Source: Flavobacterium cyclinae
GTDB lineage: Bacteria > Bacteroidota > Bacteroidia > Flavobacteriales > Flavobacteriaceae
Reading direction: 5' to 3'
NCBI RefSeq assembly: GCF_021172145.1
Contig: NZ_CP089095.1
Coordinates: 620,001-684,000 of the forward strand
Length of the DNA: 64,000 bases
Numbering within the stretch: the stretch's first letter is position 1; every line of letters begins with the position of its first letter. Position numbers and translations under genes: made by a program. Under the pieces are notes generated by a model, which was not told the origin of the DNA, ran no database searches, and was given only the letters and a program-made list of their open reading frames with translations. Positions 40,788 through 63,212 of the stretch are shown here, piece by piece.

Positions 40788-40844
40788 ACTTTAAAAAGAG
40801 TCGCTCTGTTTAGCAAAACGACTCCGTTTAAAGAACCTAATTAA

Positions 40845-41567: not shown

Positions 41568-41586
41568 AATACTGTATTGTTTAAAT

Positions 41587-41606: not shown

Positions 41607-41622
41607 ATTTAATTTTCATAGT

Positions 41623-41636: not shown

Positions 41637-41658
41637 AACGAATGTTTTTTTTTGGCAG

Positions 41659-41695
41659 TTATTTTGTACTTAATTAAAGGATAAAAATATCCTTT
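41659..41695 (+). promoter_or_regulatory. norC promoter -7 element and downstream palindrome
   Basis: TTATTTTG at 41659-41666 is the -7 element positioned by the FNR-type box. The perfect 20-base palindrome AAAGGATA-AAAA-TATCCTTT at 41676-41695 lies downstream of the predicted start (about 41671), between it and the norC ATG at 41721. That is a repressor or roadblock position. Confidence 0.65.
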
Positions 41696-41720
41696 ATAAT
41701 TTCTAACTAATATCTAAAAT

Positions 41721-42152
41721 ATGTTATCAAAATCACAAGCACGAGCATTTTTTTTAGGTGGAACTGTAGTAACCTTTTTAGTCTTTATCGGCTTAACTAT
41801 TTACTCGTTCATGCCTAAAAATGATCAAACTTATCATGATAAGATTGATGCAAAAGTTATTCGAGGAAAGGAACTTTGGGAATCGAATAATTGTATGGGT
41901 TGTCATACCATACTTGGGGAAGGAGGCTACTATGCTCCAGAACTTACTAAAGTAATCGAAAGAAGAGGAGAAGGTTATGTAAAAGCTGTTTTACAATCGC
42001 CAGTTCCTTGGGGACCAAAAGGCAGAAAAATGGTAAAATACGAAATGAACGATGCCGATGCCGAAGCCATGATTGCTTACTTCAAGTGGATTGGAAACAT
42101 TGATTTGAATGGGTTTGAGCGCGTGGTTTCCCCTTTAGCTAAAGAAGAATAA
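41721..42152 (+). CDS. norC: Nitric oxide reductase, cytochrome c subunit
   Basis: The 143-residue protein has one N-terminal membrane anchor (about 9-30) and a periplasmic cytochrome c with CMGCHTILGEGGYYAPEL (heme motif about 58-62). The distal Met is in the region of KMVKYEMND. NorC passes electrons to NorB in the cNOR complex that reduces NO to N2O. It is the first gene of norCBQD. Confidence 0.95.
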   Translation: MLSKSQARAFFLGGTVVTFLVFIGLTIYSFMPKNDQTYHDKIDAKVIRGKELWESNNCMGCHTILGEGGYYAPELTKVIERRGEGYVKAVLQSPVPWGPKGRKMVKYEMNDADAEAMIAYFKWIGNIDLNGFERVVSPLAKEE

Positions 42153-42168
42153 TCCAAAATTTAGTATC

Positions 42169-43503
42169 ATGAAATATAAATCACAAAAAGTAGCGTATTG
42201 GTTCTTTGGATTATGCATGTTATTATTTGCATTACAAATTATCTATGGTTTTATTATGGGCTTTGCCCGAATTGGAATGGATGGTCTTCACGATTTTATT
42301 CCGTTCAACACAGCAAGAGCTGTTCACACAAATTTATTAGTAGTTTGGTTGTTAACAGGTTTTATGGGAGCCGCTTATTACATTATCCCTGAAGAAGCTC
42401 AAAGGGAGTTGATAAGTGTAAAATGGGCTTACGTTCAGTTAATATCATTAGCCGTTGTAGGTGTAATGGCTATTGTAGGTTATCATTTTAATATTTGGGA
42501 AGGACGTAAATTCCTTGAAATTCCGAGAGAATTAGACTTTTTAGTTGTCGTAAATGTGTTGTTATTTCTAGGATTAATTTTAGGAACACTCTTTAAAGCA
42601 GAAAGGAGAACAACAACTTCGCTTGTATTATCAATGGGATTACTTTTTGCAGCCTTATTATACTTACCAGGTATGATTTGGTTCGATAGTCAAGTAACCG
42701 ATTCATTCTTCCGTTGGTGGGTAGTTCACTTATGGGTTGAAGGAGTATGGGAACTAATCATGGGAGGTATTTTATCATATTTACTAATAAAACTTACAGG
42801 AGTAGATCGCGAAGTAATCGAAAAATGGTTATATGTAATTGTTGGTTTGACATTTTTATCAGGTTTATTAGGTACAGGTCACCACTATTATTATATCGGA
42901 GTAAATAAAATTTGGTTAATTGTAGGTGGAATTTTCTCTGCATTAGAACCGTTAGCTTTCTTGGCAATGGCATTATTTGCAGTATATATGTATAGAAAAG
43001 GTGAAAAATCGCATCCAAATAAAATTGCATTGTTCTGGACAATCGGAGCATCTATCGTTTCATTCATCGGTGCTGGATTGTTAGGATTTGCACATACTTT
43101 ACCTCAAACAAATATTTATACACACGGAACATTAGTAACAGCAATGCACGGACATTATGCTTTCTGGGGGGCTTACGCAATGATTGTTTTAGCAATTATA
43201 AGTTATGCATTGCCTAATATAACCGGAAGAAAATTATACGACAGTACAAGAGGTCATATGGCGTTTTGGTTGTCAAATATTGGAATGCTTGGAATGACCG
43301 TAGCTTTTGGTGTTGCTGGTGTAGCTCAAGTGTACATGGAACGTAAAATGAAAATGGATTTTATGGACGTACAAAACGAAATTAGTATTCACTTTGTAGT
43401 ATTATTACTTTGTGCTACATTATTTACAACAGGAATTACTTTATATATTTTAGAGTTTATTAAGTATGGTAAGCCTACTGATGAAGCTCTAATAAAAGAA
43501 TAG
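42169..43503 (+). CDS. norB: Nitric oxide reductase, catalytic subunit
   Basis: The 444-residue protein with 12 membrane helices is a heme-copper oxidase superfamily member. Conserved regions include RAVHTNLLVVWLL (His ligand of low-spin heme b, about 51), HLWVEGVWELIMGG (FeB site His and Glu) and GTGHHYYYIG (FeB His pair), plus the heme ligand region AMHGHYAFWGAY. Its length suits cNorB, not the quinol-dependent qNor, and agrees with the adjacent norC. Confidence 0.97.
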   Translation: MKYKSQKVAYWFFGLCMLLFALQIIYGFIMGFARIGMDGLHDFIPFNTARAVHTNLLVVWLLTGFMGAAYYIIPEEAQRELISVKWAYVQLISLAVVGVMAIVGYHFNIWEGRKFLEIPRELDFLVVVNVLLFLGLILGTLFKAERRTTTSLVLSMGLLFAALLYLPGMIWFDSQVTDSFFRWWVVHLWVEGVWELIMGGILSYLLIKLTGVDREVIEKWLYVIVGLTFLSGLLGTGHHYYYIGVNKIWLIVGGIFSALEPLAFLAMALFAVYMYRKGEKSHPNKIALFWTIGASIVSFIGAGLLGFAHTLPQTNIYTHGTLVTAMHGHYAFWGAYAMIVLAIISYALPNITGRKLYDSTRGHMAFWLSNIGMLGMTVAFGVAGVAQVYMERKMKMDFMDVQNEISIHFVVLLLCATLFTTGITLYILEFIKYGKPTDEALIKE

Positions 43504-48757: not shown

Positions 48758-49921
48758 ATGATAACTGTTGTTGAAGCATTGAATATTTTAAACAACATCT
48801 CAATTCGTAAGAGTGAAATTACGTTGCCACTTCATTTAGTAAATAATTATATTTTATCACAAGATGTTTTTTCGCCAATTAACATGCCTCCATTTAGACA
48901 ATCTGCAATGGATGGTTTTGCTATCCAAACAGATGAAAATAATAGCTATAAAATAATTGGAGAAATTAAAGCAGGAGACACTGAAAATATTAAATTAAGT
49001 AAAGGTCAGTCGGTTAAAATATTTACAGGAGCTAAAGTTCCAGATGATGCTAATGCGGTTATTCAAATTGAAAAATGTTCGGTAAATGAGTCTATTCTCA
49101 CTATAGAAATAGAACCTAAGATTAACCAAAATATTAGACCAATTGGCGAGCAAATTTTTATAAATGATATTGCACTGTCTAAAGACACACTTTTAAATCC
49201 AGCAGCTATAGGTTTTTTAGCAGGATTAGGAATTACAGAAGTTAAGGTGTACAAAAAACCGTCTGTAGGAATTATTGTAACAGGAAATGAATTAATTGAA
49301 CCAGGGATTCCTTTGCCAGATGGTAAAATTTATGAAAGTAACGGTATAATGTTGCAAATGGCACTTTCTGAGTTAACTTCTGAAATACAAGTCTATAAAG
49401 TTTTTGATGAATATCAAGCAACAAAACAAGTAATAGAGAATGCTATTGCTATTCATGATGTTGTACTTATATCTGGTGGAATTTCAGTAGGGGATTACGA
49501 TTTTGTTTACGACTCATTGCAGGTAATTGGGGTACAAACCCTTTTTTATAAAGTCAATCAAAAACCTGGTAAGCCATTGTTTGCAGGTACTTTTAATGAT
49601 AAAGTTATTTTAGCTCTTCCAGGAAATCCTGCAGCAAGTTTAACTTGTTTTTATATTTATGTACATCCAATTCTAAAAAAAATAGCTGGAAATTCAAAGA
49701 CGACTTCAACAGCAATAAAAGAATTATCTCATGATTTTGTAGTAGATAATCCACGAAGTCAGTTCCTAAAAGCTAATTATTTAGATGCTACAGTTTCAGT
49801 TTTATCTCACCAACAATCTTCTATGCTAAACACTTTTGCGCTTGCAAATTGCTTGATTTACCTTCCTGAAGGAAACTATGAACTAAAAAAAGGTTCAAAA
49901 GTTGATATTTATCATATTTAG
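48758..49921 (+). CDS. moeA: Molybdopterin molybdotransferase
   Basis: The 387-residue protein has MoeA domains: N-terminal PPFRQSAMDGFAIQT, the catalytic MPT-binding fold with VGIIVTGNELIEPG, ISGGISVGDYDF and ALPGNPAASLTCFY, and a C-terminal beta domain. It inserts molybdate into adenylylated molybdopterin. It is the first gene of the molybdenum-cofactor set. Confidence 0.95.
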   Translation: MITVVEALNILNNISIRKSEITLPLHLVNNYILSQDVFSPINMPPFRQSAMDGFAIQTDENNSYKIIGEIKAGDTENIKLSKGQSVKIFTGAKVPDDANAVIQIEKCSVNESILTIEIEPKINQNIRPIGEQIFINDIALSKDTLLNPAAIGFLAGLGITEVKVYKKPSVGIIVTGNELIEPGIPLPDGKIYESNGIMLQMALSELTSEIQVYKVFDEYQATKQVIENAIAIHDVVLISGGISVGDYDFVYDSLQVIGVQTLFYKVNQKPGKPLFAGTFNDKVILALPGNPAASLTCFYIYVHPILKKIAGNSKTTSTAIKELSHDFVVDNPRSQFLKANYLDATVSVLSHQQSSMLNTFALANCLIYLPEGNYELKKGSKVDIYHI

Positions 49922-49932
49922 GATCTTCAGTT

Positions 49933-49962
49933 TTTCGTTATATTTGTTAAAGTATAACGAAA
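49933..49962. promoter_or_regulatory. ModE-type operator overlapping a -7 element
   Basis: A perfect inverted repeat TTTCGTTATA / TATAACGAAA lies at 49933-49942 and 49953-49962 with 10 bases between. It closely resembles the E. coli ModE operator of modABC (CGTTATAT ... ATAACG). A perfect -7 element TATATTTG lies inside it (49939-49946), so binding would block transcription of the following genes. Confidence 0.8.
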
Positions 49963-49972
49963 TAAGTTTATT

Positions 49973-50305
49973 TTGAAAATCAAAAGTAAAATTTGGATAG
50001 AGTCTAATAATGGAATTCTTTTAAGTGATGGGCGTGTGCAACTCCTTAAAATGATTGATGAAACAGGTTCTTTAAATAAAGCTTCAAAAGCGTTAAATAT
50101 TTCATATCAAAAAGCTTGGCGCTTGCTAGATGAAGTAAATAAAACTACAAATCAGCCTTTAATTGAAACAAAAATTGGAGGAACAAAAGGTGGAGGAACG
50201 GTTTTAACACCTTATGGAAAATCACTTATTATTGTTTTTGATACAATAAATAAAGATTGCTGGGAATTTTTAGATAAACAATTAAAAAAGCATTCTTTAT
50301 GTTAG
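49973..50305 (+). CDS. ModE-type winged-helix regulator without molybdate-binding domain
   Basis: The 110-residue protein (start TTG) consists only of the ModE N-terminal domain: SDGRVQLLKMIDETGSLNKASKALNISYQKAWRLLDEVN and GGTKGGGTVLTPYGKSL. The TOBE/molbindin domain of E. coli ModE is missing, so how molybdate is sensed is unclear. It probably binds the ModE-like palindrome 11 bases upstream of its own start. Confidence 0.85.
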   Translation: MKIKSKIWIESNNGILLSDGRVQLLKMIDETGSLNKASKALNISYQKAWRLLDEVNKTTNQPLIETKIGGTKGGGTVLTPYGKSLIIVFDTINKDCWEFLDKQLKKHSLC

Positions 50306-51045
50306 GAACTGAAATTTTAAGTTCACCTTTATTATTTTTACTATTACCAATAGTTGCTTTTTTATATGCTAGTGTAGGACACGGTGGAGCAAGTGGTTAT
50401 TTGGCTTTAATGAGCTTATTTGCTTTTCCAATTACGTTTATGAAGCCAACAGCTTTACTCTTAAATATTTTAGTTTCTGGAATTTCATTCTACTTTTATT
50501 ATAGAGAGAAAAATTTTAAATGGAACTTATTTTATCCATTTGTTATAACATCAATTCCGTTCTCTTTTCTAGGAGGATTTTTATCAGTAGATACTAAAAT
50601 TTATAAAATAATATTAGGAATTTTTTTAGTTTTTGCGGTATTTAGATTGTTAGGTTTTTTTGGAAAGGAAAAAACAACACTAAAAGAAATTAACATTCCA
50701 TTTGCCTTGCTAATTGGAGCTATAATTGGGTTTTTATCGGGCTTAATTGGTATTGGAGGTGGAATTGTTTTGAGCCCTATTTTACTAATATTAGGCTGGG
50801 CAAACATGAAACAAACCGCTGCTGTATCTGCATTATTTATATTTGTAAATTCAATTTCGGGAATTGTTGGTTTTCTATCTAAAGGTAGTGAAATTCCAAC
50901 CTCCTCATCTCTTTTAATAGGGATTGTATTTGTAGGAGGTTTTTTTGGAGCCTATTATGGGAGTAAAAAATTCAACACTTTAGTATTACGAAATGTGTTA
51001 GCCATAGTTTTAGGAATTGCAATACTTAAATTATATACCATCTAA
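50299..51045 (+). CDS. TSUP (TauE/SafE) family permease
   Basis: The 248-residue protein has about eight membrane helices and the family pattern GLIGIGGGIVLSPILLILGWANMKQTAAVSALFIFVNS (two-repeat fold). Other members move sulfite, sulfoacetate or related anions. It overlaps the modE-like gene by 7 bases and mobA by one base. Since no modABC is in the window, transport of an oxyanion such as molybdate or a sulfur compound for cofactor synthesis is conceivable. Confidence 0.85.
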   Translation: MLGTEILSSPLLFLLLPIVAFLYASVGHGGASGYLALMSLFAFPITFMKPTALLLNILVSGISFYFYYREKNFKWNLFYPFVITSIPFSFLGGFLSVDTKIYKIILGIFLVFAVFRLLGFFGKEKTTLKEINIPFALLIGAIIGFLSGLIGIGGGIVLSPILLILGWANMKQTAAVSALFIFVNSISGIVGFLSKGSEIPTSSSLLIGIVFVGGFFGAYYGSKKFNTLVLRNVLAIVLGIAILKLYTI

Positions 51046-51611
51046 TGAGTGAAGTTTCAGCATACATATTAGCAGGTGGAAGAAGTTCTCGAATGGGTTC
51101 AGATAAAGGAATGTTGCTTTTAAATGAAACCGTTTTTATTGCTCATATAGTAAAAGCTTTACAAGAAGCTTCTATTCAAAATATTTCGATTGTATCTACA
51201 AATATGGCTTATGATTTTTTAAATTGTAATCGAATCGAAGATGTATATAAAGATAAAGGTCCTGTTGGCGGAATTTTTACCGCTTTATCGCATTCGAAAA
51301 CAGAACAAAACATTATTTTAAGCGTAGATATTCCATTAATTTCTGCTGATGTTATAAAATGGTTACTTACTAATATCGATAAAGAGAAACAAATAACACA
51401 AGTAAAAGTAGTAGACAAAACCAGCCCTTTAATAGCTGTTTATAATAAAAGTGTAGTATCAATTTTTGAAGAGAATTTAAAAAAAGAACAATTAAAACTG
51501 AGAATGATAGTGGATGAAATTCAGCATCAAACTATTGAAGTTCCTGAAAAATGGTGTACTTTATTACAAAATATCAACACAAAAGAAGATTATAAAAATT
51601 TAATAAAATGA
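51045..51611 (+). CDS. mobA: Molybdenum cofactor guanylyltransferase
   Basis: The 188-residue protein has the nucleotidyltransferase motif LAGGRSSRMGSDKG (about 9-22) and ILSVDIPLIS. It adds GMP to Moco to form the bis-MGD cofactor used by DMSO-reductase-family enzymes. This matches the downstream nitrate reductase catalytic subunit. Confidence 0.92.
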   Translation: MSEVSAYILAGGRSSRMGSDKGMLLLNETVFIAHIVKALQEASIQNISIVSTNMAYDFLNCNRIEDVYKDKGPVGGIFTALSHSKTEQNIILSVDIPLISADVIKWLLTNIDKEKQITQVKVVDKTSPLIAVYNKSVVSIFEENLKKEQLKLRMIVDEIQHQTIEVPEKWCTLLQNINTKEDYKNLIK

Positions 51612-51850
51612 CAGTGAAAATAAAATATTTCGGACTTATTGCTGATATCACCAAAAGAAACGAAGAACTATTTTCTTTGTCAGAATCAGTAATAACAACT
51701 GAAGAATTGATTTCGGATTTATATAAAATATATACCGAATTAAAAAATACATCCTTTGTAATTGCAGTTAATAAATCAATTGTAACTAGTGATTTAAAAT
51801 TAAATAATAACGACATTATAGCCTTATTGCCTCCTTTTGCAGGCGGATAA
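51608..51850 (+). CDS. moaD: Molybdopterin synthase small subunit
   Basis: The 80-residue ubiquitin-like protein ends in the diagnostic double glycine (LLPPFAGG), which carries the sulfur as a thiocarboxylate. It overlaps mobA by 4 bases. Confidence 0.92.
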   Translation: MTVKIKYFGLIADITKRNEELFSLSESVITTEELISDLYKIYTELKNTSFVIAVNKSIVTSDLKLNNNDIIALLPPFAGG

Positions 51851-51855
51851 AAAAA

Positions 51856-52923
51856 ATGGAACATTCAAAACGATATTCACGACAACTGGATCTTTCAGAA
51901 ATTGGGAGTCTTGGTCAGCAAAAATTACGAAACGCAAAAGTGTTAGTTATTGGTGCTGGTGGTTTAGGCTGTCCAGTTTTACAAATACTTGCAGCTGCTG
52001 GAGTTGGAACTTTAGGTATTGTGGATGGTGATGTTGTAGATGAAACAAATTTGCACCGACAATTATTGTATACTTTTGATGATTGTGGAGAAAATAAAGT
52101 AAATGCCGCAGCAAATGCTATTCATAAAATTAATTTTGAAATTAAAACGAATGTTTATCCTGATTTTGTAAATGAAAGTAACATTGCATTTATAACAAAA
52201 GATTATGATATTATTGTAGATTGTACCGATTCTATTGCAACACGTTATTTAATTAATGACATTTCGGTTTACATGAATAAACCTATGGTTTACGCTTCAA
52301 TTCATAAATTTGAAGGTCAAATAAGTGTATTTAATTTTCAAAATGGTCCTTCGTATCGTTGTCTATTTCCTGAAAAAGAAATTGGAAATATTCCCAATTG
52401 TGTTACAACCGGTGTTTTAGGGGTTTTGCCAAATACACTTGGAATGTTGCAAGCTACCGAAGTGTTGAAAATAATTTTAGGAATAGGTTCTATTCTTTCG
52501 GGAAGATTACTAATTTACAATGCATTAGAGTTATCGTTTAACGAAATGGAATTTGTGAAAAATAAAACACAATTAGAAATTGGAATTGAAAAAGGAAAAC
52601 AATTGTCTCAAAATAAAAAACAGAATTACGAGTTGGACAAAACTGCATTTTTAGAAAAATGTACCAACGAAAATTATATTATTATCGATTTAAGAGAGGT
52701 TCATGAACTCCCTAAATTAAAATACAAATCAATTCAAAATATTCCTTTTTCAGAAATTGAAAAACATCAAAATCAATTAGTAAAAAGTCAAAACATAGTC
52801 TTTTTTTGTCAAAGTGGCATACGCAGTAAAAAAGCAGTTGAACTATTGGTAAATAATGGTTATACAAACATTTATCATTTACAAAACGGAATTCAATCAT
52901 TACATTTAGAAACAACAACATAA
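51856..52923 (+). CDS. moeB: MoeB-type adenylyltransferase with rhodanese domain
   Basis: The 355-residue protein has a ThiF/E1-like domain (about 1-245, VLVIGAGGLGCPVLQILAAAGVGTLGIVDGDVV; FPEKEIGNIPNC) and a C-terminal rhodanese domain (about 262-350) with active Cys in FFCQSGIRSKKAV. It activates the MoaD C-terminus and transfers sulfur. Confidence 0.93.
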   Translation: MEHSKRYSRQLDLSEIGSLGQQKLRNAKVLVIGAGGLGCPVLQILAAAGVGTLGIVDGDVVDETNLHRQLLYTFDDCGENKVNAAANAIHKINFEIKTNVYPDFVNESNIAFITKDYDIIVDCTDSIATRYLINDISVYMNKPMVYASIHKFEGQISVFNFQNGPSYRCLFPEKEIGNIPNCVTTGVLGVLPNTLGMLQATEVLKIILGIGSILSGRLLIYNALELSFNEMEFVKNKTQLEIGIEKGKQLSQNKKQNYELDKTAFLEKCTNENYIIIDLREVHELPKLKYKSIQNIPFSEIEKHQNQLVKSQNIVFFCQSGIRSKKAVELLVNNGYTNIYHLQNGIQSLHLETTT

Positions 52924-52925
52924 AT

Positions 52926-53369
52926 ATGGAAACAAAACCAATTAAAAAATCATTCGTTCAAGGTCCAATTTCTGCTGATTTTATTGGGAATTCAATTGCA
53001 AAACACCAAACAAAAACAAGTATTGGAGCACATAATATCTTTTTAGGGCAAGTTCGCGCCGATGAAATTGATGGAAAAACTGTTGTTGCGATTGACTATT
53101 CAGCTTATGAAGAAATGGCTGAACAAAAATTTCATGAAATTCGTGAAGCTGCATTTGAAAAATACGATTTAACATGTTTGCATATTTACCATAGTTTAGG
53201 ACTAGTAAAAGCAGGTGAAATTTGCTTATTTGTATTTGTTTCGGCACCTAGAAGAAAAGTGGTTTATGATGCATTAAATTTTTTGGTTGAAGAAATAAAA
53301 GAAAAAGTAGCCATTTTTGGTAAAGAACTATTTGAAGATGAAACCTATACTTGGAAAAAAAATCAATAA
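52926..53369 (+). CDS. moaE: Molybdopterin synthase catalytic subunit
   Basis: The 147-residue protein has MoaE residues GAHNIFLGQVRADEIDGKTV (about 35-54), IYHSLGLVKAGEICLFVFVSAPRRK and the C-terminal catalytic region KEKVAIFGKELFEDETYTWKKN. With MoaD it converts cPMP to molybdopterin. Confidence 0.94.
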   Translation: METKPIKKSFVQGPISADFIGNSIAKHQTKTSIGAHNIFLGQVRADEIDGKTVVAIDYSAYEEMAEQKFHEIREAAFEKYDLTCLHIYHSLGLVKAGEICLFVFVSAPRRKVVYDALNFLVEEIKEKVAIFGKELFEDETYTWKKNQ

Positions 53370-53371
53370 CT

Positions 53372-54289
53372 ATGGTTGATATAACACATAAAATAAACAC
53401 AAAAAGAGAAGCTGTTGCACAAGCAATTGTGAAAGTAGGAAGTTTAAAGACTATAGAAGCTATTCAAAATAAAACGGTTCCTAAAGGAGATGTAATTGAA
53501 GTTTCTAAAGTTGCTGGATTGTTTGCTGTAAAAAATACTTCTAATGCCATTCCAGATTGTCATCCATTGCCTATTGAATTCACTGCTGTTCATCATTATA
53601 TTCAAGATGATTGCATATATATAGAAGTTTCGGTTAAAACCATTTACAAAACAGGTGTAGAGGTAGAGGCTATGCATGGCGCTTCTATTGTTGCTTTAAC
53701 CATGTACGATATGTTAAAACCAATCGATAAAAATGTAGAAATTTCTAGTGTCAAGTTATTACATAAAAAAGGAGGTAAATCAGATTTTGGTAAAAATGAA
53801 AATCTAAATTTAAATGTAGCCGTTGTTGTCAGTTCCGATAGCGTTTCTAGTGGAAAAAAAGAAGATAAAGCTGGAAAAATAATAGGTTCAAAATTAAACA
53901 CATTAGGTCTTGATGTTTCAGATTATATTATTGTTCCAGATGAAATTGAAACGTTACAAAATACGTTATTACAATTTTGTGCAGCCCAAAAGGATTTAAT
54001 TATTATAACTGGAGGAACCGGATTGTCGCCAAGAGATACCACTCCAGAAGCTATAATTCCGTTATTAGACAGAAGAATTCCAGGTATTGAAGAAGCTATT
54101 CGTTCTTATGGGCAAGACAGAACACCTTACGCCATGCTTTCCAGAAGTGTAGTTGGATTTAAAGGTGATACTTTAATAATGGCACTTCCAGGATCTACAA
54201 GCGGTGCTTCAGAATCTATAGATGCGGTATTTCCATCTGTATTACATTTATTTAAGATAATCAAAGGATTTAATCATGACAAAAAATAA
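53372..54289 (+). CDS. moaCB: MoaC-MoaB/MogA fusion protein
   Basis: The protein of about 305 residues from ATG 53372 has an N-terminal MoaC (about 1-150) with KNTSNAIPDCHPLPIEF and VEVEAMHGASIVALTMYDMLK. The C-terminal MoaB/MogA domain (about 155-305) has VVVSSDSVSSGKKEDKAGK, TGGTGLSPRDTTPEA and LPGSTSGASESIDAVFP. It combines cPMP synthase and molybdopterin adenylyltransferase; such fusions occur in Bacteroidota. It overlaps moaA by 14 bases. Confidence 0.93.
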   Translation: MVDITHKINTKREAVAQAIVKVGSLKTIEAIQNKTVPKGDVIEVSKVAGLFAVKNTSNAIPDCHPLPIEFTAVHHYIQDDCIYIEVSVKTIYKTGVEVEAMHGASIVALTMYDMLKPIDKNVEISSVKLLHKKGGKSDFGKNENLNLNVAVVVSSDSVSSGKKEDKAGKIIGSKLNTLGLDVSDYIIVPDEIETLQNTLLQFCAAQKDLIIITGGTGLSPRDTTPEAIIPLLDRRIPGIEEAIRSYGQDRTPYAMLSRSVVGFKGDTLIMALPGSTSGASESIDAVFPSVLHLFKIIKGFNHDKK

Positions 54290-55280
54290 GGTTTTAATAG
54301 ATTCTCACGGTAGAAACCACAATTATCTTCGAATTTCAATTACAGAAAATTGCAATCTAAGATGTACTTATTGTATGCCTGCCGAAGGAATTCAATTAAC
54401 TCCTAAGAAACACTTGATGTCTGCCGATGAAATTATTGAAATAGCTTCAACTTTTGTTTCTCTTGGTGTAACAAAAATCCGCTTAACAGGTGGAGAGCCA
54501 TTGGTACGTAAAGACGCGAAAGAAATTCTTCTGCGCCTTTCAAAATTAGAAACTGAATTGACTTTAACAACTAATGGATTATTTGTACATGATTATATTA
54601 CAGTTTTTAAAGAAGCTGGCATCAAAGCACTAAATGTTAGTATAGATACGTTACAAAAAGATAAATTTGCTCAAATTACACGTCGTGATGAGTTTGATAA
54701 ATTAGATGAAAATATTCGATTGTTATTAGCCGAAGGATTTATTGTTAAATTAAACGTTGTTTTAATAAAAGGATTTAACGAAAATGAGATTTTAGATTTT
54801 ATTGATTTAACGAAAGATAAAAATCTTCAAATTCGTTTCATAGAATTTATGCCATTTGATGGTAATAATTGGGATAAGTCTAAATTAGTTAGTCAAGCTG
54901 AAATTTTACATACAATTCAGGAACTACATGCTAAAGAAGCTATTGAAAGATTAATAGATAAGCCAAATGATACCGCAAGAAACTATAAAATTAAAAACTA
55001 TTGCGGTAGTTTTGCAATTATAAGTTCTGTGACCAATCCTTTTTGCAATACTTGTAATAGAATTAGATTAACTGCAGATGGAAAATTAAAGAACTGTTTG
55101 TTTTCTAATTCGGAAACCTCACTTTTAGAAGCCTTACGAAATGGAGATTCAATACTTCCTTTAATTGAAAAAAATATTTATTCAAAAAAAGGAATTCGTG
55201 CTGGCTTAGACGACCAAAATGCATTTGAAAACCCATTAGTTTTTAATAAAAACCGAAGTATGATTGCTATTGGTGGTTAG
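54276..55280 (+). CDS. moaA: GTP 3',8-cyclase MoaA (radical SAM)
   Basis: The 334-residue protein has the radical SAM motif CNLRCTYCMPAEG (about 26-38), LTGGEPLVRKD, and the C-terminal second cluster CNTCNRIRLTADGKLKNCLFS. It ends in IAIGG with the required terminal double glycine. It makes the first intermediate of Moco. It is the last gene of the Moco operon. Confidence 0.97.
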   Translation: MTKNKVLIDSHGRNHNYLRISITENCNLRCTYCMPAEGIQLTPKKHLMSADEIIEIASTFVSLGVTKIRLTGGEPLVRKDAKEILLRLSKLETELTLTTNGLFVHDYITVFKEAGIKALNVSIDTLQKDKFAQITRRDEFDKLDENIRLLLAEGFIVKLNVVLIKGFNENEILDFIDLTKDKNLQIRFIEFMPFDGNNWDKSKLVSQAEILHTIQELHAKEAIERLIDKPNDTARNYKIKNYCGSFAIISSVTNPFCNTCNRIRLTADGKLKNCLFSNSETSLLEALRNGDSILPLIEKNIYSKKGIRAGLDDQNAFENPLVFNKNRSMIAIGG

Positions 55281-55374: not shown

Positions 55375-56850
55375 ATGAGCAGTTTGTCACAATCTCACAA
55401 AATATTATTTTTAAATACTTTAGCTTTTACTATTTGTTTCGCTTGTTGGACATTAAATGGCGTCTTGGTAACTTACTTGGTAGATAAAGGAATATTTAAT
55501 TTTAGTGTTGTTGAAATAGGTTGGTTACTAGGAATTCCAATACTATCAGGTGCTATATTTAGATTGCCTGTAGGTATATTAACTGACAAATATGGTGGTA
55601 AAGTCGTGTTCTCATTTTTATTAATTTTATGTGCTATTCCGCTATTCCTATTAACATTTGCAAACTCTTTTTGGTCATTTGCTATTTTGAGTTTTCTTTT
55701 TGGATTAGTTGGAACTAGTTTTGCAGTTGGAATTGGTTACACTTCTGTTTGGTACCCAAAAGAGTGGCAAGGTAGAGCTTTAGGTATTTTCGGAATGGGA
55801 AATGCAGGAGCTGCAATTACTACTTTTATTGCACCCACACTTTTAAATAAATTCTCAGAGACTGACCCTGAAAATGGATGGAAAACATTGCCAATTATTT
55901 ATGGAATTACTTTATTACTTATAGGATTGTTGTTCGTATTCTTTGCAAAAAATAAAAAAGTTGAAGCCTCTGGAAAAACAATTTCTCAATTGTTATTACC
56001 CTTAAAAAATAAAAGAGTTTGGCGTTTTGGTGTTTACTACTTTTTAGTTTTTGGTTGCTTTGTTGCTTATTCACAATGGTTGTTACCTAACTTTATGAAT
56101 GTATATAGCACTTCGTTAGTAATGGGCGGAATGTTTGCTACTATGTTTAGTTTACCATCCGGAGTTATTAGAGCGTTTGGAGGCTATTTATCTGATAAGT
56201 TTGGAGCTAGAAAAGTTATGTACTGGGTATTAGGTTCTTCTGTTATAATAAGTTTTTTATTAATGTTTCCAAAAATGGAAATTATAACTGCTGGTCCCGG
56301 AGTATTGTCTGCTAAAAATGGAATTGTTTCTGAAATAAAAGGTTCACATATTGTTATAGATACAAAAGAATATGATATAAATATTAAAGATGTAACTGAC
56401 GAAAAAGAAAGCAATATCTTACCCGTTAGCTCTTCTTGGCAAGAGATTGTTGTAAAACAAAATCAAGAAGTAAAGAAGAAAGAATTATTAGCAAAAGGAA
56501 TAACCCAAATCAAATTCAGTGCGAATATGTGGGTGTATTTAATTTTAGTCATTTTAATAGGAATTGCTTGGGGTATTGGTAAAGCAGCTGTTTACAAACA
56601 CATTCCTGAATATTTTCCAAACGAAGTAGGAGTAGTTGGTGGAATGGTAGGCTTAATTGGTGGTTTAGGAGGTTTCTTTGGTCCCATCATTTTTGGATAT
56701 TTATTAAGCTCTACTGGATTATGGACAAGTTCTTGGATATTTATTTTTGTAATATCGCTAGCCTGTCTGATTTGGATGCACAATACCATTATTAGAATTT
56801 TAAGAATAAAATCTCCAGAATTTTCAAGAGATATAGAACACGATCATTAA
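55375..56850 (+). CDS. narK1: NarK-type nitrate/nitrite transporter with soluble insert (first copy)
   Basis: The protein of about 491 residues from ATG 55375 belongs to the MFS NNP family: FRLPVGILTDKYGGKVVF and GMGNAGAAITTFIAPT (NS signature) in the first half, GGMVGLIGGLGGFFGPIIFG in the second. About 80 residues (about 300-382) form an inserted soluble domain between helices, with a hairpin and VKQNQEVKKKELLAKG reminiscent of a lipoyl-like barrel-sandwich fold. It imports nitrate or exchanges it with nitrite. The start upstream of this ATG is not supported. Confidence 0.88.
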   Translation: MSSLSQSHKILFLNTLAFTICFACWTLNGVLVTYLVDKGIFNFSVVEIGWLLGIPILSGAIFRLPVGILTDKYGGKVVFSFLLILCAIPLFLLTFANSFWSFAILSFLFGLVGTSFAVGIGYTSVWYPKEWQGRALGIFGMGNAGAAITTFIAPTLLNKFSETDPENGWKTLPIIYGITLLLIGLLFVFFAKNKKVEASGKTISQLLLPLKNKRVWRFGVYYFLVFGCFVAYSQWLLPNFMNVYSTSLVMGGMFATMFSLPSGVIRAFGGYLSDKFGARKVMYWVLGSSVIISFLLMFPKMEIITAGPGVLSAKNGIVSEIKGSHIVIDTKEYDINIKDVTDEKESNILPVSSSWQEIVVKQNQEVKKKELLAKGITQIKFSANMWVYLILVILIGIAWGIGKAAVYKHIPEYFPNEVGVVGGMVGLIGGLGGFFGPIIFGYLLSSTGLWTSSWIFIFVISLACLIWMHNTIIRILRIKSPEFSRDIEHDH

Positions 56851-56889
56851 TAAAACAAACTAATTTATATTAAACATAAAACAATTACT

Positions 56890-58482
56890 ATGGGAACTTG
56901 GCTAGAAAAATGGGAACCAGAAGAAGATAATTTTTGGAACCAAACAGGAAGTAAAATAGCATGGAAAACATTAACAATAACAACATTGTCGTTAATTTTG
57001 TCATTTGCGTCATGGTTTATGATGAGCGTTATTGTGGTAAAATTACCAGGTTTAGGTTTTAGTTTCGATAAAGATCAATTATTTTGGTTAGCCGCAATTC
57101 CAGGATTAGCTGCGGGTATTTTAAGAATAGTACATACGTTTATATTACCTATTTTCGGAACAAGACATGTAGTTGCATTTTCAACATTAATAAAATTAAT
57201 CCCAGTTGTAGGAATTGGGTTTGCAGTTATGAATCCTACTACACCATTTTGGGTGTTTATGATTTTAGCTTTTACTACTGGCTTTGGTGGAGGCGATTTT
57301 TCTTCATTTATGCCAAGTACTAATATGTTCTTTCCAAAACGATTAAAAGGAACAGCACTTGGTGTTCAAGCAGGTATTGGAAATTTTGGTGTTTCTTTAG
57401 CGCAATTTGTAACTCCAATGGTTTTAAGTATCGCTTTATATGGAGCACCTTCTATGTTTACAAGTATAGATGCAAAAGAAGCGAAAGCAATTGTTGCTAG
57501 AACTACAGTAGAACAACAAGTTGCAATTTTTGAAAAAATCGAAGATAAAAAGCAAACAGCAATGCTTTCAAACGTGAAACCTAAAGTAATGGATTCTGTT
57601 AAAGCCGCTATTAGTTCAACTGATAATGTAAAAGTATTTGCTGCACTACCTTTAAAAGCTAGAGCAAAAATTATTGCTAATTCAAATCCTAAATTAGCTG
57701 AAAAAATATTAAACCAATTAGAACCAGACAATAAAGCCGTAACCAATAAAGAAATTTATATTCAATCGGCTGCATTTTGGTACATTCCATTATTAATTTT
57801 ACTTTCAATAATTAGTTGGTTTTATTTAAGAAGTATCCCTATGAAGGCTTCTATAAAAGAACAAATGGATATTTTTAGTAACAAACACACTTGGTTTTGT
57901 ACCGTAACTTATGTTATGACTTTTGGAACATTTGCTGGATTATCAGCAGCTTTTCCATTAATGATTAAATTCTTATATGGCGATTTTCCAAATGCTCCAG
58001 ATCCGTTAGCTTATGCTTTTTATGGTCCACTTATTGGTTCAGCAAGTAGAGTTGTTTTCGGATTTGTGGCTGACAAAGTAGGAGGAGCTATTTTAACTAC
58101 TATTACAGGTATTGGTATTTTAACAGGAGCAATAATTTTAGTAACTCAAGGATTGGTAGCGCCAACTAGTATGGACCAATTCCCAATGTTTGTAACAATT
58201 ATTTTGTTGATGTTTTTGTTTACTGGAATTGGAAATGCTGGCACCTTTAGACAATATCCAATTATATTTTCTGAAAATCAAAGACAAGCTGCTGGAGTTA
58301 TTGGATGGACAGCCGCAATTGCAGCCTTTGGACCTTTTATTTTTTCTAAATTAATTGGAAATAATATTAGTTCAAATGGAGGAGCAAACCAATTCTTTAT
58401 AGGCTTAATTATTTTCACTATATTAGCTACAGTTATTAATTGGTATTATTATAATAGAAAAGGTTGTGAAAGACCTAGTTAA
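56890..58482 (+). CDS. narK2: NarK-type nitrate/nitrite transporter with helical insert (second copy)
   Basis: The 530-residue protein has MFS NNP motifs: GIGNFGVSLAQFVTPM (NS signature) and GNAGTFRQYPIIFSENQRQAAGVIGW. A helical, charged insert of about 100 residues (about 192-292; IDAKEAKAIVARTTVEQQV ... NQLEPDNKA) lies between membrane helices, unlike the beta-type insert in the first copy. The pair may differ in direction or substrate (nitrate/H+ symport and nitrate/nitrite antiport). It is co-transcribed with the reductase genes. Confidence 0.87.
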   Translation: MGTWLEKWEPEEDNFWNQTGSKIAWKTLTITTLSLILSFASWFMMSVIVVKLPGLGFSFDKDQLFWLAAIPGLAAGILRIVHTFILPIFGTRHVVAFSTLIKLIPVVGIGFAVMNPTTPFWVFMILAFTTGFGGGDFSSFMPSTNMFFPKRLKGTALGVQAGIGNFGVSLAQFVTPMVLSIALYGAPSMFTSIDAKEAKAIVARTTVEQQVAIFEKIEDKKQTAMLSNVKPKVMDSVKAAISSTDNVKVFAALPLKARAKIIANSNPKLAEKILNQLEPDNKAVTNKEIYIQSAAFWYIPLLILLSIISWFYLRSIPMKASIKEQMDIFSNKHTWFCTVTYVMTFGTFAGLSAAFPLMIKFLYGDFPNAPDPLAYAFYGPLIGSASRVVFGFVADKVGGAILTTITGIGILTGAIILVTQGLVAPTSMDQFPMFVTIILLMFLFTGIGNAGTFRQYPIIFSENQRQAAGVIGWTAAIAAFGPFIFSKLIGNNISSNGGANQFFIGLIIFTILATVINWYYYNRKGCERPS

Positions 58483-58505: not shown

Positions 58506-59549
58506 ATGAATTATAACGTTAGAGCACTACTTTCTGCAACTTTTGCTTCGGTTTTAATGGTTGTATTAGTTTTTTTTGGTTCTAGAAATTTGCAAAATTT
58601 CGATGCTGCCTTAATTACTTATTTGTTTGGTACTGTATTTGCATTTTTTGGAATCGTATACAGAACAACTGTTTGGTTACAAAGACCTCCAACGTGGATG
58701 TATTTTAAACGAGGAATTCATTTTTTATTTACAGGAAAAGTTTTTTCTCATTTAGTTTTTGTCTCCAAAGAAGTGGTAGGTAATATTGCTTTACAAAAAT
58801 TTATTTATCCAAGAGGAAAGTACCGTTGGTTAGCTCATTTTCTAATCGCTATAGGATGTACTTCGGCTTTTTTAATCACGATTCCTCTAACTTTTGGATG
58901 GATACATTTCACTTTAGCACCCAATTCTATAGAACTTTACGAAGCCCATGTTTTTGGTTTTCATATGTTCTCATTTAAACTAGGCTCAATAATAGCTTTT
59001 TTAACTTTTCATGCTTTAAATTGGTCTTCTTGGTTTGTTATCTTGGGCTCTTTATACTATTTAAGAAGACGTTTAACAAATCCTGGTTTAATAGCAACCC
59101 AAACTTTTGATGGAGATTTATTGCCATTAATTTTATTAATTGCTATTTCTGCTACGGGTCTTGGTCTTACCTATTCTTATCAATTTATGAAAGGCTTTGC
59201 TTTTGACTTTTTAGCAGTTTTACATGCAGTAACCGTTATTTTGTTTTTAATTTGGATTCCTTTCGGTAAATTTTTCCATATTATACAAAGACCTGCGCAA
59301 ATTGGAGCTCACATCTATAAAATTGAAGGAAAAAAACTAAAAGGAATGGCAGTTTGTCCTCATACAGGTAAAGAATTCACTACGCAATTGCATGTAGACG
59401 ATTTAAAAATTGTAACACGAAAATTAGGGTTCGACTTTTCTCAACAAGACGGAGGTTCGCATTTAGATTTAAGTCCAGAAGGGAAGCGTTCAAGAATTGC
59501 TCAAGCACATTTAAATGCTCGAAAAGATGGAGGCAATTTATTTGGTTAA
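58506..59549 (+). CDS. Cytochrome b-type membrane subunit (NarI/HdrE-like)
   Basis: The 347-residue protein has about seven membrane helices with His residues at helix positions able to bind heme b (AHFLIAIG; YEAHVFGFHMFSF; FHALNW; VLHAVTV; GKFFHIIQRP). The C-terminus (about 260-347) is soluble and cytoplasmic. It resembles NarI/HdrE membrane subunits in position and pattern but I cannot assign it firmly. Its place directly ahead of the molybdenum subunit suggests it links the quinone pool to the reductase. Confidence 0.7.
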   Translation: MNYNVRALLSATFASVLMVVLVFFGSRNLQNFDAALITYLFGTVFAFFGIVYRTTVWLQRPPTWMYFKRGIHFLFTGKVFSHLVFVSKEVVGNIALQKFIYPRGKYRWLAHFLIAIGCTSAFLITIPLTFGWIHFTLAPNSIELYEAHVFGFHMFSFKLGSIIAFLTFHALNWSSWFVILGSLYYLRRRLTNPGLIATQTFDGDLLPLILLIAISATGLGLTYSYQFMKGFAFDFLAVLHAVTVILFLIWIPFGKFFHIIQRPAQIGAHIYKIEGKKLKGMAVCPHTGKEFTTQLHVDDLKIVTRKLGFDFSQQDGGSHLDLSPEGKRSRIAQAHLNARKDGGNLFG

Positions 59550-59566
59550 TTTAATATAAGAACAAA

Positions 59567-61783
59567 ATGGCAAAATTACCAGTTTCAATAGATAAAATTA
59601 TAGAACAATTTGGACCTAGTTTAAACTATGCTCCTAAAGATGGATTTACAGGTAGAGACGAACCAGATGAAGTTGTAAATACACATTGTTGCTTTTGCGG
59701 TATGCAATGTGGAATTAAATTATTAGTAAAAGAAAATAAAGTTGTAGGATTCGATCCATGGATGGAATTTCCTTTTAACGAGGGAAGATTGTGTCCAAAA
59801 GGGGTGCAACGTTATTTACAAAATAATCACCCTGATAGAATTTTAAATCCACTTCAACGAGTAGAAGGTAAAGGTTTTGAACCTATTTCTTGGGATAGTG
59901 CGATGGATAAAACTATCACAGAAATTAAAAGAATTCAAGAAAAATATGGAAAAGACGCCTTTTCCATGTTGTCTGGAGTTTCTTTAACTAACGAAAAAAG
60001 TTACTTAGTAGGCAAGTTTGCACGTGTAGCATTAAAAACCAAAAACCTGGACTATAATGGTCGTTTGTGTATGGTAAGTGCTGGAGCAGGAAATAAAAAA
60101 GCTTTTGGATTAGATAGAGCATCTAATAATTATTCGGATTTAGAGTATGCTGAGGTTATTATTGTCGCAGGTGCAAATATTAGTGAAACATTCCCAACAT
60201 TAACACATTGGATTTGGAAAGCAAGAGATAGAGGTGCTAAACTAATTGTTATAGACCCACGTGTTATTCCTCTAGCTCGTACGGCTGATATTCATTTAGA
60301 TGTGAAACCAGGAACCGATTCTGCTTTGTATGGTGCTATGCTAAAATATTTAGTTGATAATGACATGTTAGATCATGATTTTATTGATAATTATACTTCA
60401 GGTTTTCAAGATACAATAGACGCAGTTAAAGATTATACGCTTGAATGGGCTGAGGAAATAACCGGTATTCAAAAAGAAAAAATAAAAGCAGCAGCTGAAT
60501 TATGGGGAAAAGCCAAAACATCATTCTTATTACACGCTCGTGGAATTGAACATCATTCAAAAGGTGTAGATAACGTTTTAGGCTGTATAAATTTAGTATT
60601 AGCTACAGGAAGAATAGGAAAACCTTATTGCGGATACGGAACTATTACAGGTCAAGGAAACGGACAAGGAGGAAGAGAACATGGTCATAAGTGTGATCAA
60701 TTACCAGGTAACCGTGATATTGAAAACCCAGAACACAGAAAATATATTTCAGAAGTTTGGGGAATTGATGAAAAGGATTTGCCAGGAAAAGGACTTTCAG
60801 CCTACGAAATTATTGAGGCGATTCATCGTGGAGAAATAAAGGGGCTTTTGTCAATTTGTTTTAATCCATTAGTCTCTTTACCTAACAGTAATTATGTTAG
60901 AGAAGCATTAGAAAAATTAGAATATTACGTATGTATTGATTTCTTTTTAAATGAAACAGCAAGACATGCCGATATTATATTGGCAGGTTCATTACAAGAA
61001 GAAGAAGAAGGAACTACAACTTCTGCTGAAGGTAGAGTTATTAGAATTAGACAAGCAGTAACTCCTCCAGGAGATGCAAGAACAGATACTTCTATTATAC
61101 TTGAATTAGCAGAAAGATTAGGTGTAAAAGATAAATTTACCTATGATAATAGTGAAACAATTTTTAATGAATTGAGAGTAGCTTCTAAAGGAGGAACAGC
61201 TGATTATTACGGTATTACTTATAAGAGAATCGAAGACAACATGGGTGTTTTTTGGCCATGTCCTTCCGAAGATCATCCAGGAACACCACGTTTATGGGAA
61301 GATAAAAAATTCAAAACACCCGACGGGAAAGCACATTTTAATCCAGCCCCTTATAAATTACCAGGAGAAGTTACAGATGAAGCATATCCAATTACTTTAA
61401 CCACAGGTCGCGTAGTATCACAATATTTAAGTGGAACACAAACTAGACGTATAGGAAAATTAGTTGATCAATTTCCAGAACCTTTATTAGAAATTCATCC
61501 GGAAATGGCTGAAAAATATAACATAAAACAAAGAGAATTAGTTAAGGTTTCTACCCGTCGTGGAGAAGGTATTTTTCCAGCTAATATTGTTGAAACGATT
61601 AGGAAAGACACCGTTTTTATACCGTATCATTGGCCAGGTCAAAAATCAGCAAATTTATTAACACCAGGGACTCTAGACCCTATTTCTAAAATACCAGAAT
61701 TTAAAGTGTCTGCATGTAAATTAGAGCCATTAAATGAAATTGCTCCACTTGGTACAGAATCAAAAGCCTACGCAAGCATTTAA
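59567..61783 (+). CDS. Molybdopterin nitrate reductase catalytic subunit (NarB/NasA/NapA-like)
   Basis: The 738-residue protein belongs to the bis-MGD DMSO reductase family. An N-terminal [4Fe-4S] motif [13 protein letters not shown] ... GRLCPKG (about 42-78) is followed by the Mo-ligand Cys in [18 protein letters not shown] (about 166-183), as in Nap/Nas-type nitrate reductases; NarG has Asp. There is no Tat signal, so it is cytoplasmic. It lacks the C-terminal BFD [2Fe-2S] domain of NasA. With the cytochrome b-like, ferredoxin and Rieske subunits it should form a membrane-linked nitrate reductase. Confidence 0.88.
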
Positions 61784-61800
61784 TTTATTAAAAAAATACT

Positions 61801-62373
61801 ATGAGTAATTATACCACATTTAATAGAAACGAAGAGTTTTTTGTAGATATGCAACGTTGCATAGGATGTAAAGCTTGTGAAATGGCATGTGCAGAATGTG
61901 AAACGAATGGTCATGACTCTATGATACATGTAAATTACGTGGAGCGTTCTACTACTATTCAAACTACTGTTCAAGTTTGTATGCATTGTGAAGATCCTGT
62001 ATGTGCAAATGTTTGCCCCGCCGATGCTATTTCAAAAGATGAATTTGGTATAGTTCATACTGCAAATACTGAACGTTGCATTGGATGTTCCAATTGTGTT
62101 ATGGCATGTCCGTTTGGAGTTCCTAAGAAAATTGAAGAGTATGATTTAATGATGAAATGTACTATGTGTTATGATAGAACAAGCGTTGGAAAAAAACCAA
62201 TGTGTGCTACAGTATGCCCAAGCGGCGCTTTGTTTTACGGTACTAAAGAAGAAATTAAAGAAATGAGACCAAACAGTTCACCAGTGAATACATTTGTATT
62301 TGGAAAAGAAGTAGTGAATACAAAAGTGAATATAATGATGCCAAAAGGTAGTACCGAATTAATTATTTATTAA
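61801..62373 (+). CDS. Four-cluster ferredoxin-type electron transfer subunit
   Basis: The 190-residue protein has four [4Fe-4S] cluster Cys groups: [37 protein letters not shown] and CTMCYDR...CATVCP. This is the DmsB/NrfC/NarH-like layout. It should pass electrons from the membrane subunit to the molybdenum subunit. It has no Tat signal, in agreement with a cytoplasmic side. Confidence 0.93.
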
Positions 62374-62383
62374 TGAATTTATC

Positions 62384-62893
62384 ATGTCAAAAGAAAATAA
62401 TTTAGATAAAAATTGGAAAAAAGATTTTCCAATCCAAAAACAAGAAGCAGCTCAAGTTAGTAGAAGAGATTTTGCAAAGTTTTTAACTCTAGTATCAGGT
62501 GGATTAATGGTAGGTAGTGGTTTAGTTGCAGCAAAATCTTATTTATTACCTAAAGAGGAAGTAGAAGGAGAACATTTTGTTTGTGATATAAAAGATATCC
62601 CTGTTGGCGGAACAAAAGCATTTTTAATTAAAGGAAGTACTATTCCTTATATTTTAATCCATTTAGAGGATGGTAGTTTTACTGCATATGAACAAAAATG
62701 TACACATTTATCATGTGCGGTTTATTATAAACCTGGTTCTGGTCAAATAATTTGTCCGTGTCATGAAGGTCACTTTGATGCTAAAACAGGTGATGTTTTA
62801 GCAGGACCACCTCCAAGACCCTTACCACGTTTAGATGTGTTAGTAAAAGAACAAGCTATCTTTGTAAAAGCTCATGAAAATTCAATTGGTTAA
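62384..62893 (+). CDS. Rieske [2Fe-2S] protein with Tat-type anchor
   Basis: The 169-residue protein has an N-terminal Tat motif SRRDFAKFLTL (about 25-35) and a hydrophobic anchor (about 35-50), then a Rieske domain with CTHLSC (about 106-111) and CPCHEGHFD. The cluster would be on the periplasmic side. A Rieske subunit next to a cytoplasmic molybdenum nitrate reductase is unusual. It may draw electrons from quinol together with the cytochrome b-like subunit. Confidence 0.9.
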   Translation: MSKENNLDKNWKKDFPIQKQEAAQVSRRDFAKFLTLVSGGLMVGSGLVAAKSYLLPKEEVEGEHFVCDIKDIPVGGTKAFLIKGSTIPYILIHLEDGSFTAYEQKCTHLSCAVYYKPGSGQIICPCHEGHFDAKTGDVLAGPPPRPLPRLDVLVKEQAIFVKAHENSIG

Positions 62894-62911
62894 TCTTAAT
62901 AAATAAAGCCC

Positions 62912-63157
62912 ATGAGTACTTTTAGACAAGGACAGAATAGTGCCAATACAAGAAAACTAAATGCTGTATTATCTACCATAATTTTTATATTAATACTTAA
63001 TGTTACTATTCAAATTTGGTTATTATACGCTGCATTAAATAATGCTTTAGATAATAACAAAGAGATTTTAATTCCAGCTTTTATTGCATCGGCTATATTA
63101 TTTGCAATTGGAGTAGGTTTACTCTATTATCTCCCTATTGGCAATAACAAAAAATAA
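62912..63157 (+). CDS. Small two-helix membrane protein of the nitrate reductase operon
   Basis: The 81-residue protein has two membrane helices (about 18-42 and 52-72). It has no recognised family. It follows the Rieske gene by 18 bases and ends the operon. A role in assembly or anchoring of the complex is inferred from position only. Confidence 0.7.
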   Translation: MSTFRQGQNSANTRKLNAVLSTIIFILILNVTIQIWLLYAALNNALDNNKEILIPAFIASAILFAIGVGLLYYLPIGNNKK

Positions 63158-63177: not shown

Positions 63178-63212
63178 AAAAACTTTTGAAAATTCTGTAT
63201 TCAAAAGTTTTT
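63178..63212 (+). terminator. Terminator of the nitrate reductase operon
   Basis: AAAAACTTTTGAA / TTCAAAAGTTTTT with a 9-base loop and T run, 20 bases after the last stop. Confidence 0.85.

Follow-up and report, generated by a model that had tools for sequence, protein, structure and literature searches.

A conserved five-gene set in Flavobacterium cyclinae that probably encodes a respiratory nitrate reductase of the NasC lineage with NarI-like and Rieske partners

Five adjacent genes on the plus strand of a 64,000-nucleotide stretch of the Flavobacterium cyclinae genome (positions 620,001 to 684,000 of contig NZ_CP089095.1, assembly GCF_021172145.1; this whole stretch is hereafter the window, and all coordinates refer to it) probably encode a dissimilatory menaquinol:nitrate oxidoreductase, combining a NasC-type molybdenum subunit with a cytochrome b of the NarI type and a Rieske protein of presumably low potential. 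The set is a real, conserved and so far unnamed type of nitrate reductase that most likely serves respiration. An earlier note, made from the letters of this DNA alone, had placed the five open reading frames (ORFs) at 58506-63157 and proposed a distinct nitrate reductase that is neither Nar nor Nap; the coordinates and strand are confirmed, and the lineage tree, profile scores and active site described below bear out the proposal. Lineage, gene set and dissimilatory setting are well supported by sequence comparison, and we infer from the same proteins that they form a complex, bind and pair hemes, and take electrons from a quinol in the direction proposed below; the part played by the Rieske protein is the most conjectural point. 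The five genes are separated by gaps of 10-18 bases, as follows.

58506-59549, plus strand: NarI-like membrane subunit, 347 amino acids (aa), putative heme-b ligands H111, H169, H240 and H258
59567-61783, plus strand: catalytic subunit of the NasC lineage, predicted to carry molybdenum-bis(pyranopterin guanine dinucleotide), 738 aa (PF00384, PF01568, PF04879)
61801-62373, plus strand: four-cluster ferredoxin, 190 aa, 16 cluster cysteines (PF13247)
62384-62893, plus strand: Rieske [2Fe-2S] protein, 169 aa, twin-arginine N-terminal anchor (PF00355; CTHLSC...CPCHEGHF)
62912-63157, plus strand: DUF6755 two-helix membrane protein, 81 aa (PF20540, 47.3 bits)

The catalytic subunit and its lineage

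The catalytic subunit has an N-terminal Fe4S4 domain and a predicted molybdenum ligand, Cys168, in the motif RLCM, which is present in all 78 aligned rows (the window's protein and those of 77 of 84 loci, the other seven being too short). None of these rows has an RRx[F/L] motif within its first 45 residues. Both the Cys-ligand pattern and the missing twin-arginine translocation (Tat) signal, described in the earlier note for the window's protein, are thus seen in all 78 rows. When ranked with NCBIfam models, the protein scores 852.8 bits with NasC (NF047855), which does not reach the equivalog cut-off of 1100 bits, followed by formate dehydrogenase (625 bits) and NapA (291 bits). Among solved structures the order is formate dehydrogenases (485 bits), Desulfovibrio-type NapA (348 bits) and Escherichia coli NarG (53 bits). 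The RLCM active site is shared with the NasA rows, in contrast to R(V/L)CH in the three formate dehydrogenases used for comparison.

For the phylogeny, 34 rows were placed in a quick maximum-likelihood tree with SH-aLRT support and without bootstrap, its long branches being flagged; AioA (L098) was dropped beforehand, and Bacillus subtilis NasC, cyanobacterial NarB and NarG were not included. The 13 proteins of the system form one clade (support 100), which lies inside a group, also supported at 100, together with NasC-type enzymes of Paenibacillus, Mycobacterium, Streptantibioticus and Arthrobacter and the nasA product of Deinococcus; these five non-system members group together at 82. The other group comprises NapA, proteobacterial NasA and the large NasC found in further genomes of the phylum. 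The genes of Paenibacillus, Mycobacterium and Deinococcus grandis adjoin nirB or nirBD, and the Streptantibioticus and Arthrobacter stretches have no gene annotation. Grouping with a non-nitrate enzyme, which the earlier note had named as grounds for giving up its reading, was thus checked by phylogeny, and the subunit stands with nitrate reductases, not with formate dehydrogenases. Formate dehydrogenase, the identity suggested by the top solved structures, was rejected on the Cys-Met active site and this placement.

By these comparisons the catalytic subunit is neither NarG-like nor NapA-like and belongs to a supported clade beside assimilatory NasC. NarG has an Asp as its molybdenum ligand, and the 738-aa protein is not a catalytic subunit of that kind. 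Catalysis is probably cytoplasmic, given the absent Tat motif, the neighbouring NarK-type genes and the NarK fusions described below.

The membrane and iron-sulfur partners

The 347-aa protein, for which the earlier note had suggested a cytochrome b-like partner, resembles NarI by fold comparison, by profile and by a profile search of the PDB; its predicted fold, nearest to NarI and EtfD, is that of a NarI-type cytochrome b. It has no Pfam match and is not a bc-type cytochrome b. With the single sequence, the PDB search gave no match up to an E-value of 10, and the family profile retrieved NarI at an E-value of 0.018. H240 and H258 align with NarI H187 and H205, which are heme ligands in accounts of NarI (in the parts consulted of PMC5338063 and PMC11327836). 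The several histidines that the earlier note had seen in this multi-helix protein are conserved: H111, H240 and H258 in 102/102 aligned homologues and H169 in 92/102. The distal site appears rebuilt, as the position ten after H111, corresponding to NarI H66, is Ala in 101 of the 102 homologues and the near-invariant His of the family sits on a different helix from H66; the full set of NarI ligands (H56, H66, H187 and H205) is therefore not present. From its helix position, H111 would be the counterpart of H56.

The closest named relative of this subunit is that of F. oreochromis (86%), with five clusters ranking above it at 86-97%. A homologue at 79% is listed for F. johnsoniae, and others come from Armatimonadota, actinobacteria and Pantanalinema. 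NCBI records often label the protein 'MFS transporter', and we suspect that gene fusions are the reason. In P0223 (560 aa) and P0226 (571 aa), both from contigs shorter than 4.3 kb, the whole cytochrome subunit is fused to a NarK-type transporter, or at least to the C-terminal part of one. Such fusions tie the transporter to the reductase, and if the C-terminus of NarK is inside, they would also place the N-terminus of the cytochrome in the cytoplasm, with the topology of NarI for the NarI-like part. Shorter fusions of the same two proteins were seen in P0195, P0224 and P0239. Residues 284-326 of the subunit correspond to a zinc-ribbon-like tail (CxxC...CxxC) in 80/102 homologues; the other 22, namely the window's protein and those closer to it, retain just the first Cys.

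In the ferredoxin, the 16-Cys pattern of four complete four-Cys motifs is present in 78/78 rows, and the window's protein has no twin arginine in its first 45 residues, in agreement with the earlier note. Its best NCBIfam model is DmsB (TIGR02951, 105.6 bits, below the cut-off of 214.1), and among solved chains it comes closest to the formate dehydrogenase-N beta subunit (1kqf_B). The Rieske protein, in which a Tat motif had likewise been noted, carries SRRDFA in the window, with RRxF near the N-terminus in all 78 rows, and CxHxxC and CPCHxGxF with both extra cysteines are equally invariant (78/78). Its profile is nearest to the Rieske chains of the cytochrome b6f and bc1 complexes, making it a bc-type Rieske protein. 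In bc1 Rieske proteins a Ser and a Tyr raise the redox potential; these positions are Gly and Phe in 20/20 aligned rows, so that a low potential is to be expected, suited to menaquinol, the flavobacterial quinone. The fifth protein has two hydrophobic helices, which fits the small two-helix protein of the earlier note and identifies it as DUF6755, a family of which no mention was found in the open-licence literature searched. A viral fold library gave no match at E ≤ 0.001.

Conservation, genome setting and competing readings

A scan of one genome per species found at least 535 relatives of the cytochrome subunit among 593 stretches, of which the best 80, nearly all from Flavobacterium, were kept, so that counts from this set say little about distant relatives. 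The other four genes lie downstream, on the same strand and in the window's order, in all 74 of these loci with at least 4.5 kb of sequence (six of the 80 were too short for downstream reading), and the co-occurrence of the five genes is far beyond chance. Of the 79 loci with enough upstream sequence, 75 have a NarK gene in the 4.5 kb before the cytochrome gene, the exceptions being L030, L063, L065 and L083. A nirK homologue is found near the set in 13/73 loci and moeA or moaA in 41/65; in L139, nirK and norC homologues adjoin the operon. The best 80 include F. denitrificans (DSM 15936, L070) and two metagenome-assembled genomes of Ignavibacteria. By blastp, DUF6755 was detected in 75/84 loci, with the Deinococcus proteins below the threshold; the latter are annotated as DUF6755 in their records, and Pfam finds the one tested. 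In five Flavobacterium assemblies there are two copies of the operon (L016/L037, L026/L044, L031/L043, L027/L062 and L028/L071), one behind a narK1-type gene alone and the other behind narK2.

The set is also found on plasmids of Deinococcus, four of which match the cytochrome (39-40%) and the catalytic subunit (61-63%). In the two that were read (L091 and L092) the five genes occur in the same order and are followed by NarK, and the 19 kb read there contains no annotated nir or nor gene. These plasmids are large, and a small conserved ORF lies directly upstream of the set; the protein encoded downstream combines GAF, Trans_reg_C and BTAD domains (domains tested in L092).

In a sample of 395 genomes of the phylum, including the window's own, matches to the NasC model at 1e-80 or better occur in 56 genomes. 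Eight of them score 838-875 bits, the next scores 556.5, and none of the 395 passes the NCBIfam NasC cut-off. DUF6755 was found in 8/395 genomes, and these are exactly the eight of the 838-875-bit class. Four of the eight (G021, G170, G202 and G316) have in addition a separate NasC ORF of about 1,180 aa, and in the three that were read a NirB-like segment follows within the length of that ORF on the same strand. Nitrate reductases of about 1,180 aa, with a NasC part followed by a NirB-like flavoprotein part, were seen in other flavobacteria (L141, L142 and L145). A separate hit, at 28% identity, came from G228 (L009).

The host genome (one contig of 3.02 Mb, rated 100% complete) has the 738-aa catalytic subunit as its sole PF00384 match and the Rieske protein of the set as its sole PF00355 match. 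PF01077 (NIR_SIR, the sulfite/nitrite reductase domain) has no match in it, and 11 of 14 control genomes were positive; hence no enzyme of the NirB or NirA type is seen that would turn nitrite into ammonium. By the same matches, the host perhaps has no canonical complex I NuoG and perhaps no sulfite reductase. One NrfD-family protein is encoded elsewhere in the genome and may be part of an alternative complex III, as an unconfirmed candidate. The features around the set in the window are the following.

35976-43503, plus strand: denitrification-type genes with other ORFs between them, which we take to be NirK-like (35976-37445), NorC-like (41721-42152) and NorB-like (42169-43503)
48758-55280, plus strand: block resembling molybdenum-cofactor biosynthesis genes, among them presumably MoeA-like (48758-49921) and MoaA-like (54276-55280), both names, like the three above, being read from the sequence
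55375-56850, plus strand: NarK-type nitrate/nitrite transporter 1, 491 aa from ATG, with a possible TTG start at 55315
56890-58482, plus strand: NarK-type nitrate/nitrite transporter 2, ending 23 bases before the cytochrome-subunit gene
63178-63212, plus strand: terminator-like hairpin behind the DUF6755 gene, with a 13-bp stem and a T-rich tail

The two NarK transporters that were thought to feed the enzyme are indeed present upstream, at 55375-58482, and lie outside the range that the earlier note had given for the system. Its respiratory rather than assimilatory interpretation gains support from the absence of PF01077, the single PF00384 match and the separate long NasC in four of the eight genomes.

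According to the preferred reading, in which the five proteins act as a menaquinol:nitrate oxidoreductase, NarK would import nitrate and the NasC-type subunit would reduce it to nitrite in the cytoplasm, with the ferredoxin (four [4Fe-4S] clusters predicted) linking the molybdenum subunit to the NarI-like membrane cytochrome b. Menaquinol would be oxidised at the outer face of the membrane, between the distal heme (H169 and H240) and the Tat-exported low-potential Rieske protein, and electrons would move inward via the proximal heme (H111 and H258). Protons would be released outside, which together with the inward electron movement would let the reaction generate a proton-motive force. DUF6755 would be a small structural membrane subunit, and nitrite would leave by NarK and feed the periplasmic nitrite and NO reductases. 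We hold it somewhat less likely than not that the Rieske protein accepts a single quinol electron and returns it inward to the heme chain; a true split of the two electrons is unlikely, and the remaining weight lies on other roles, including assembly. Whether all of this amounts to a separate respiratory class beside Nar and Nap, in which an assimilatory-type NasC has been recruited to a quinol-oxidising complex whose NarI-type cytochrome is rebuilt and whose Rieske protein sits at the quinol site, possibly splitting electrons, we would put at a little under an even chance.

Since NasC enzymes are described as assimilatory (in the part consulted of PMC7331816) and the catalytic subunit is of their lineage, the set could be an assimilatory NasC enzyme with extra membrane partners, supplying nitrite for biosynthesis. 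This is very unlikely and was rejected: the genome has no PF01077 match, and so no known cytoplasmic protein for the step from nitrite to ammonium, while half of the eight set-bearing genomes have a separate long NasC ORF, with the NirB-like segment in the three read; the NarI-like subunit and the nirK- and norCB-like genes that share an island with the operon speak against it as well. That the set acts as an oxidoreductase on some different substrate, such as formate or arsenite, is extremely unlikely, since the Cys-Met in place of Cys-His at the active site, the higher score with NasC than with formate dehydrogenase, the tree and the NarK genes upstream in 75/79 loci all outweigh the formate dehydrogenases that head the solved-structure relatives.

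Two further readings concern the Rieske protein and the cytochrome. The set might combine two machines, NasC and the ferredoxin acting on nitrate, and the Rieske protein and the NarI-like cytochrome forming a quinol oxidase that substitutes for bc1 and feeds NirK and the cytochrome c-dependent NO reductase (cNor). The nitrite and NO reductases of the island, as their genes are read, need periplasmic electrons, and the only PF00355 match of the genome is the Rieske protein of the set; nevertheless this arrangement is quite unlikely, considering that two Deinococcus plasmids carry the set as a unit and lack nir and nor annotations over the 19 kb examined, that the cytochrome is like NarI and unlike bc1 cytochrome b, that no c-type cytochrome is among the five genes, and that the NrfD-family protein, an unconfirmed candidate, could serve as alternative complex III. 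Alternatively, the quinol electrons might be bifurcated in a Q-cycle-like manner, one going via the Rieske protein to periplasmic denitrification enzymes and the other via heme b to cytoplasmic nitrate, as could be imagined from a twin-arginine Rieske protein beside a NarI-like cytochrome with a rebuilt distal heme site, and from the nirK- and norCB-like genes in the same island. Bifurcation is unlikely too, because both electrons can go to nitrate, an acceptor of sufficient strength, making a split unneeded, and because a CPCHxGxF Rieske protein that lacks the potential-raising Ser and Tyr would be a poor donor to NirK; annotated nir or nor genes are also lacking around the Deinococcus sets.

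Relation to known systems and further observations

Compared with E. coli NarGHI, the set has a similar plan, with a molybdenum subunit, a four-cluster ferredoxin, a NarI-type cytochrome b, NarK partners and a predicted cytoplasmic active site. It differs in its catalytic subunit (NasC-type, 738 aa, Cys ligand, versus NarG of about 1,250 aa), in its ferredoxin (190 aa with all 16 Cys, whereas NarH has Trp for one Cys in the alignment), in the shifted distal heme ligand, and in having a Rieske protein and DUF6755 in addition and no recognised NarJ. Unlike Nap, it has no Tat-exported subunit of the NapA lineage, as RRx[F/L] is absent from the first 45 residues of 78/78 rows and the tree sets the subunit apart from the NapA row. 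With NasC and NasA it shares the lineage, and with NasA the Cys-Met active site, but the annotated NasC and NasA genes that were read adjoin nirB or nirBD; the window's set has instead NarI-like, ferredoxin, Rieske and DUF6755 genes, and a partnership with an assimilatory nitrite reductase is not found in its genome, which lacks PF01077.

Rieske proteins in nitrate reductase loci are known from other systems, and the statement of the earlier note that assimilatory Nas has no Rieske partner was wrong in general. In Paracoccus a Rieske-type NasG/NirD serves NasC, and a gene for a Rieske-type protein is linked to some of the nasC genes of Bacillus (PMC3475470, in the part consulted). The window's Rieske protein differs from NasG/NirD in being bc-type, with both extra cysteines and a twin-arginine signal. 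The haloarchaeal Nar operon of Haloferax mediterranei (narBC-narGH) encodes a Rieske protein and a cytochrome b (narC), for which a Q-cycle has been proposed (PMC2483277, as far as consulted), but its catalytic subunit is NarG; the window's set has NasC-type and NarI-type subunits, not a Rieske protein and cytochrome b with NarG and NarH. The nap locus of Caldithrix abyssi, too, contains Rieske and cytochrome b genes, the likeness to the window's set; there the cytochrome b is similar to that of bc1, and the periplasmic NapA is believed to receive its electrons from NapM or NapGH (PMC5317091, in the part consulted). None of the haloarchaeal Nar, Caldithrix nap and Paracoccus/Bacillus NasC systems equals the five-gene set, of which no description was found in the open-licence literature, a scope that leaves out preprints and most subscription papers.

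With catalytic, four-cluster and membrane-anchor genes together, the set has the composition of a complex iron-sulfur molybdoenzyme (CISM). In the portion consulted of a 2020 phylogeny, members of the NasC/AioA/NapA clade are said to lack canonical four-cluster or anchor subunits, and NasA and NasC to be exclusively assimilatory (PMC7331816); by gene content, the set is an exception to that statement on the partners of the NasC lineage. A 2023 phylogeny likewise lists NasC as assimilatory (PMC10100899, in part). If it forms a separate respiratory class, this class would extend across several phyla, hidden by misleading gene names. Surveys of nitrate respiration based on narG and napA would miss the set or count it as assimilation. 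It would also explain how denitrification starts in a flavobacterium whose only PF00384 enzyme is NasC-like, and it raises the bioenergetic question of what a Rieske protein does beside a NarI-type cytochrome. As a separate class it would be, to our knowledge, the first NarI-type enzyme with a Rieske protein in quinol oxidation. In F. columnare ATCC 49512, anaerobic growth was improved by nitrate with no extracellular nitrite detected, and nitrate reduction was ascribed to a 'soluble cytoplasmic nitrate reductase' (PMC5395568, in the part consulted); if this strain carries the five-gene set, its enzyme should be membrane-bound.

FNR/CRP-like sites in the window gave no signal, with 17 matches (19.5 expected). 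There were 21 promoter-like sites (38.3 expected). A consensus terminator scan of the window found 7 sites (4.7 expected), and the AT-rich hairpin at 63178-63212 was not among them, because the scan wants G-C pairs; it was hence folded separately, giving -9.9 kcal/mol with a z-score of -3.6, and none of 200 shuffles was equally stable. In NCBIfam profile searches, both transporters match TIGR00886 below its cut-off of 311.7 bits, NarK1 with 200 bits (5.9e-59) and NarK2 with 262 bits (7.1e-78). NarK1 has a long polar insertion between helices at residues 307-375, and residues 190-277 of NarK2 are MgtE_N-like (PF03448, 31.0 bits against a cut-off of 25.9), which is odd for a nitrate transporter. 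The NirK-like copper nitrite reductase at 35976-37445 carries a cytochrome c motif (CxxCH, residue 386) in its C-terminal part.

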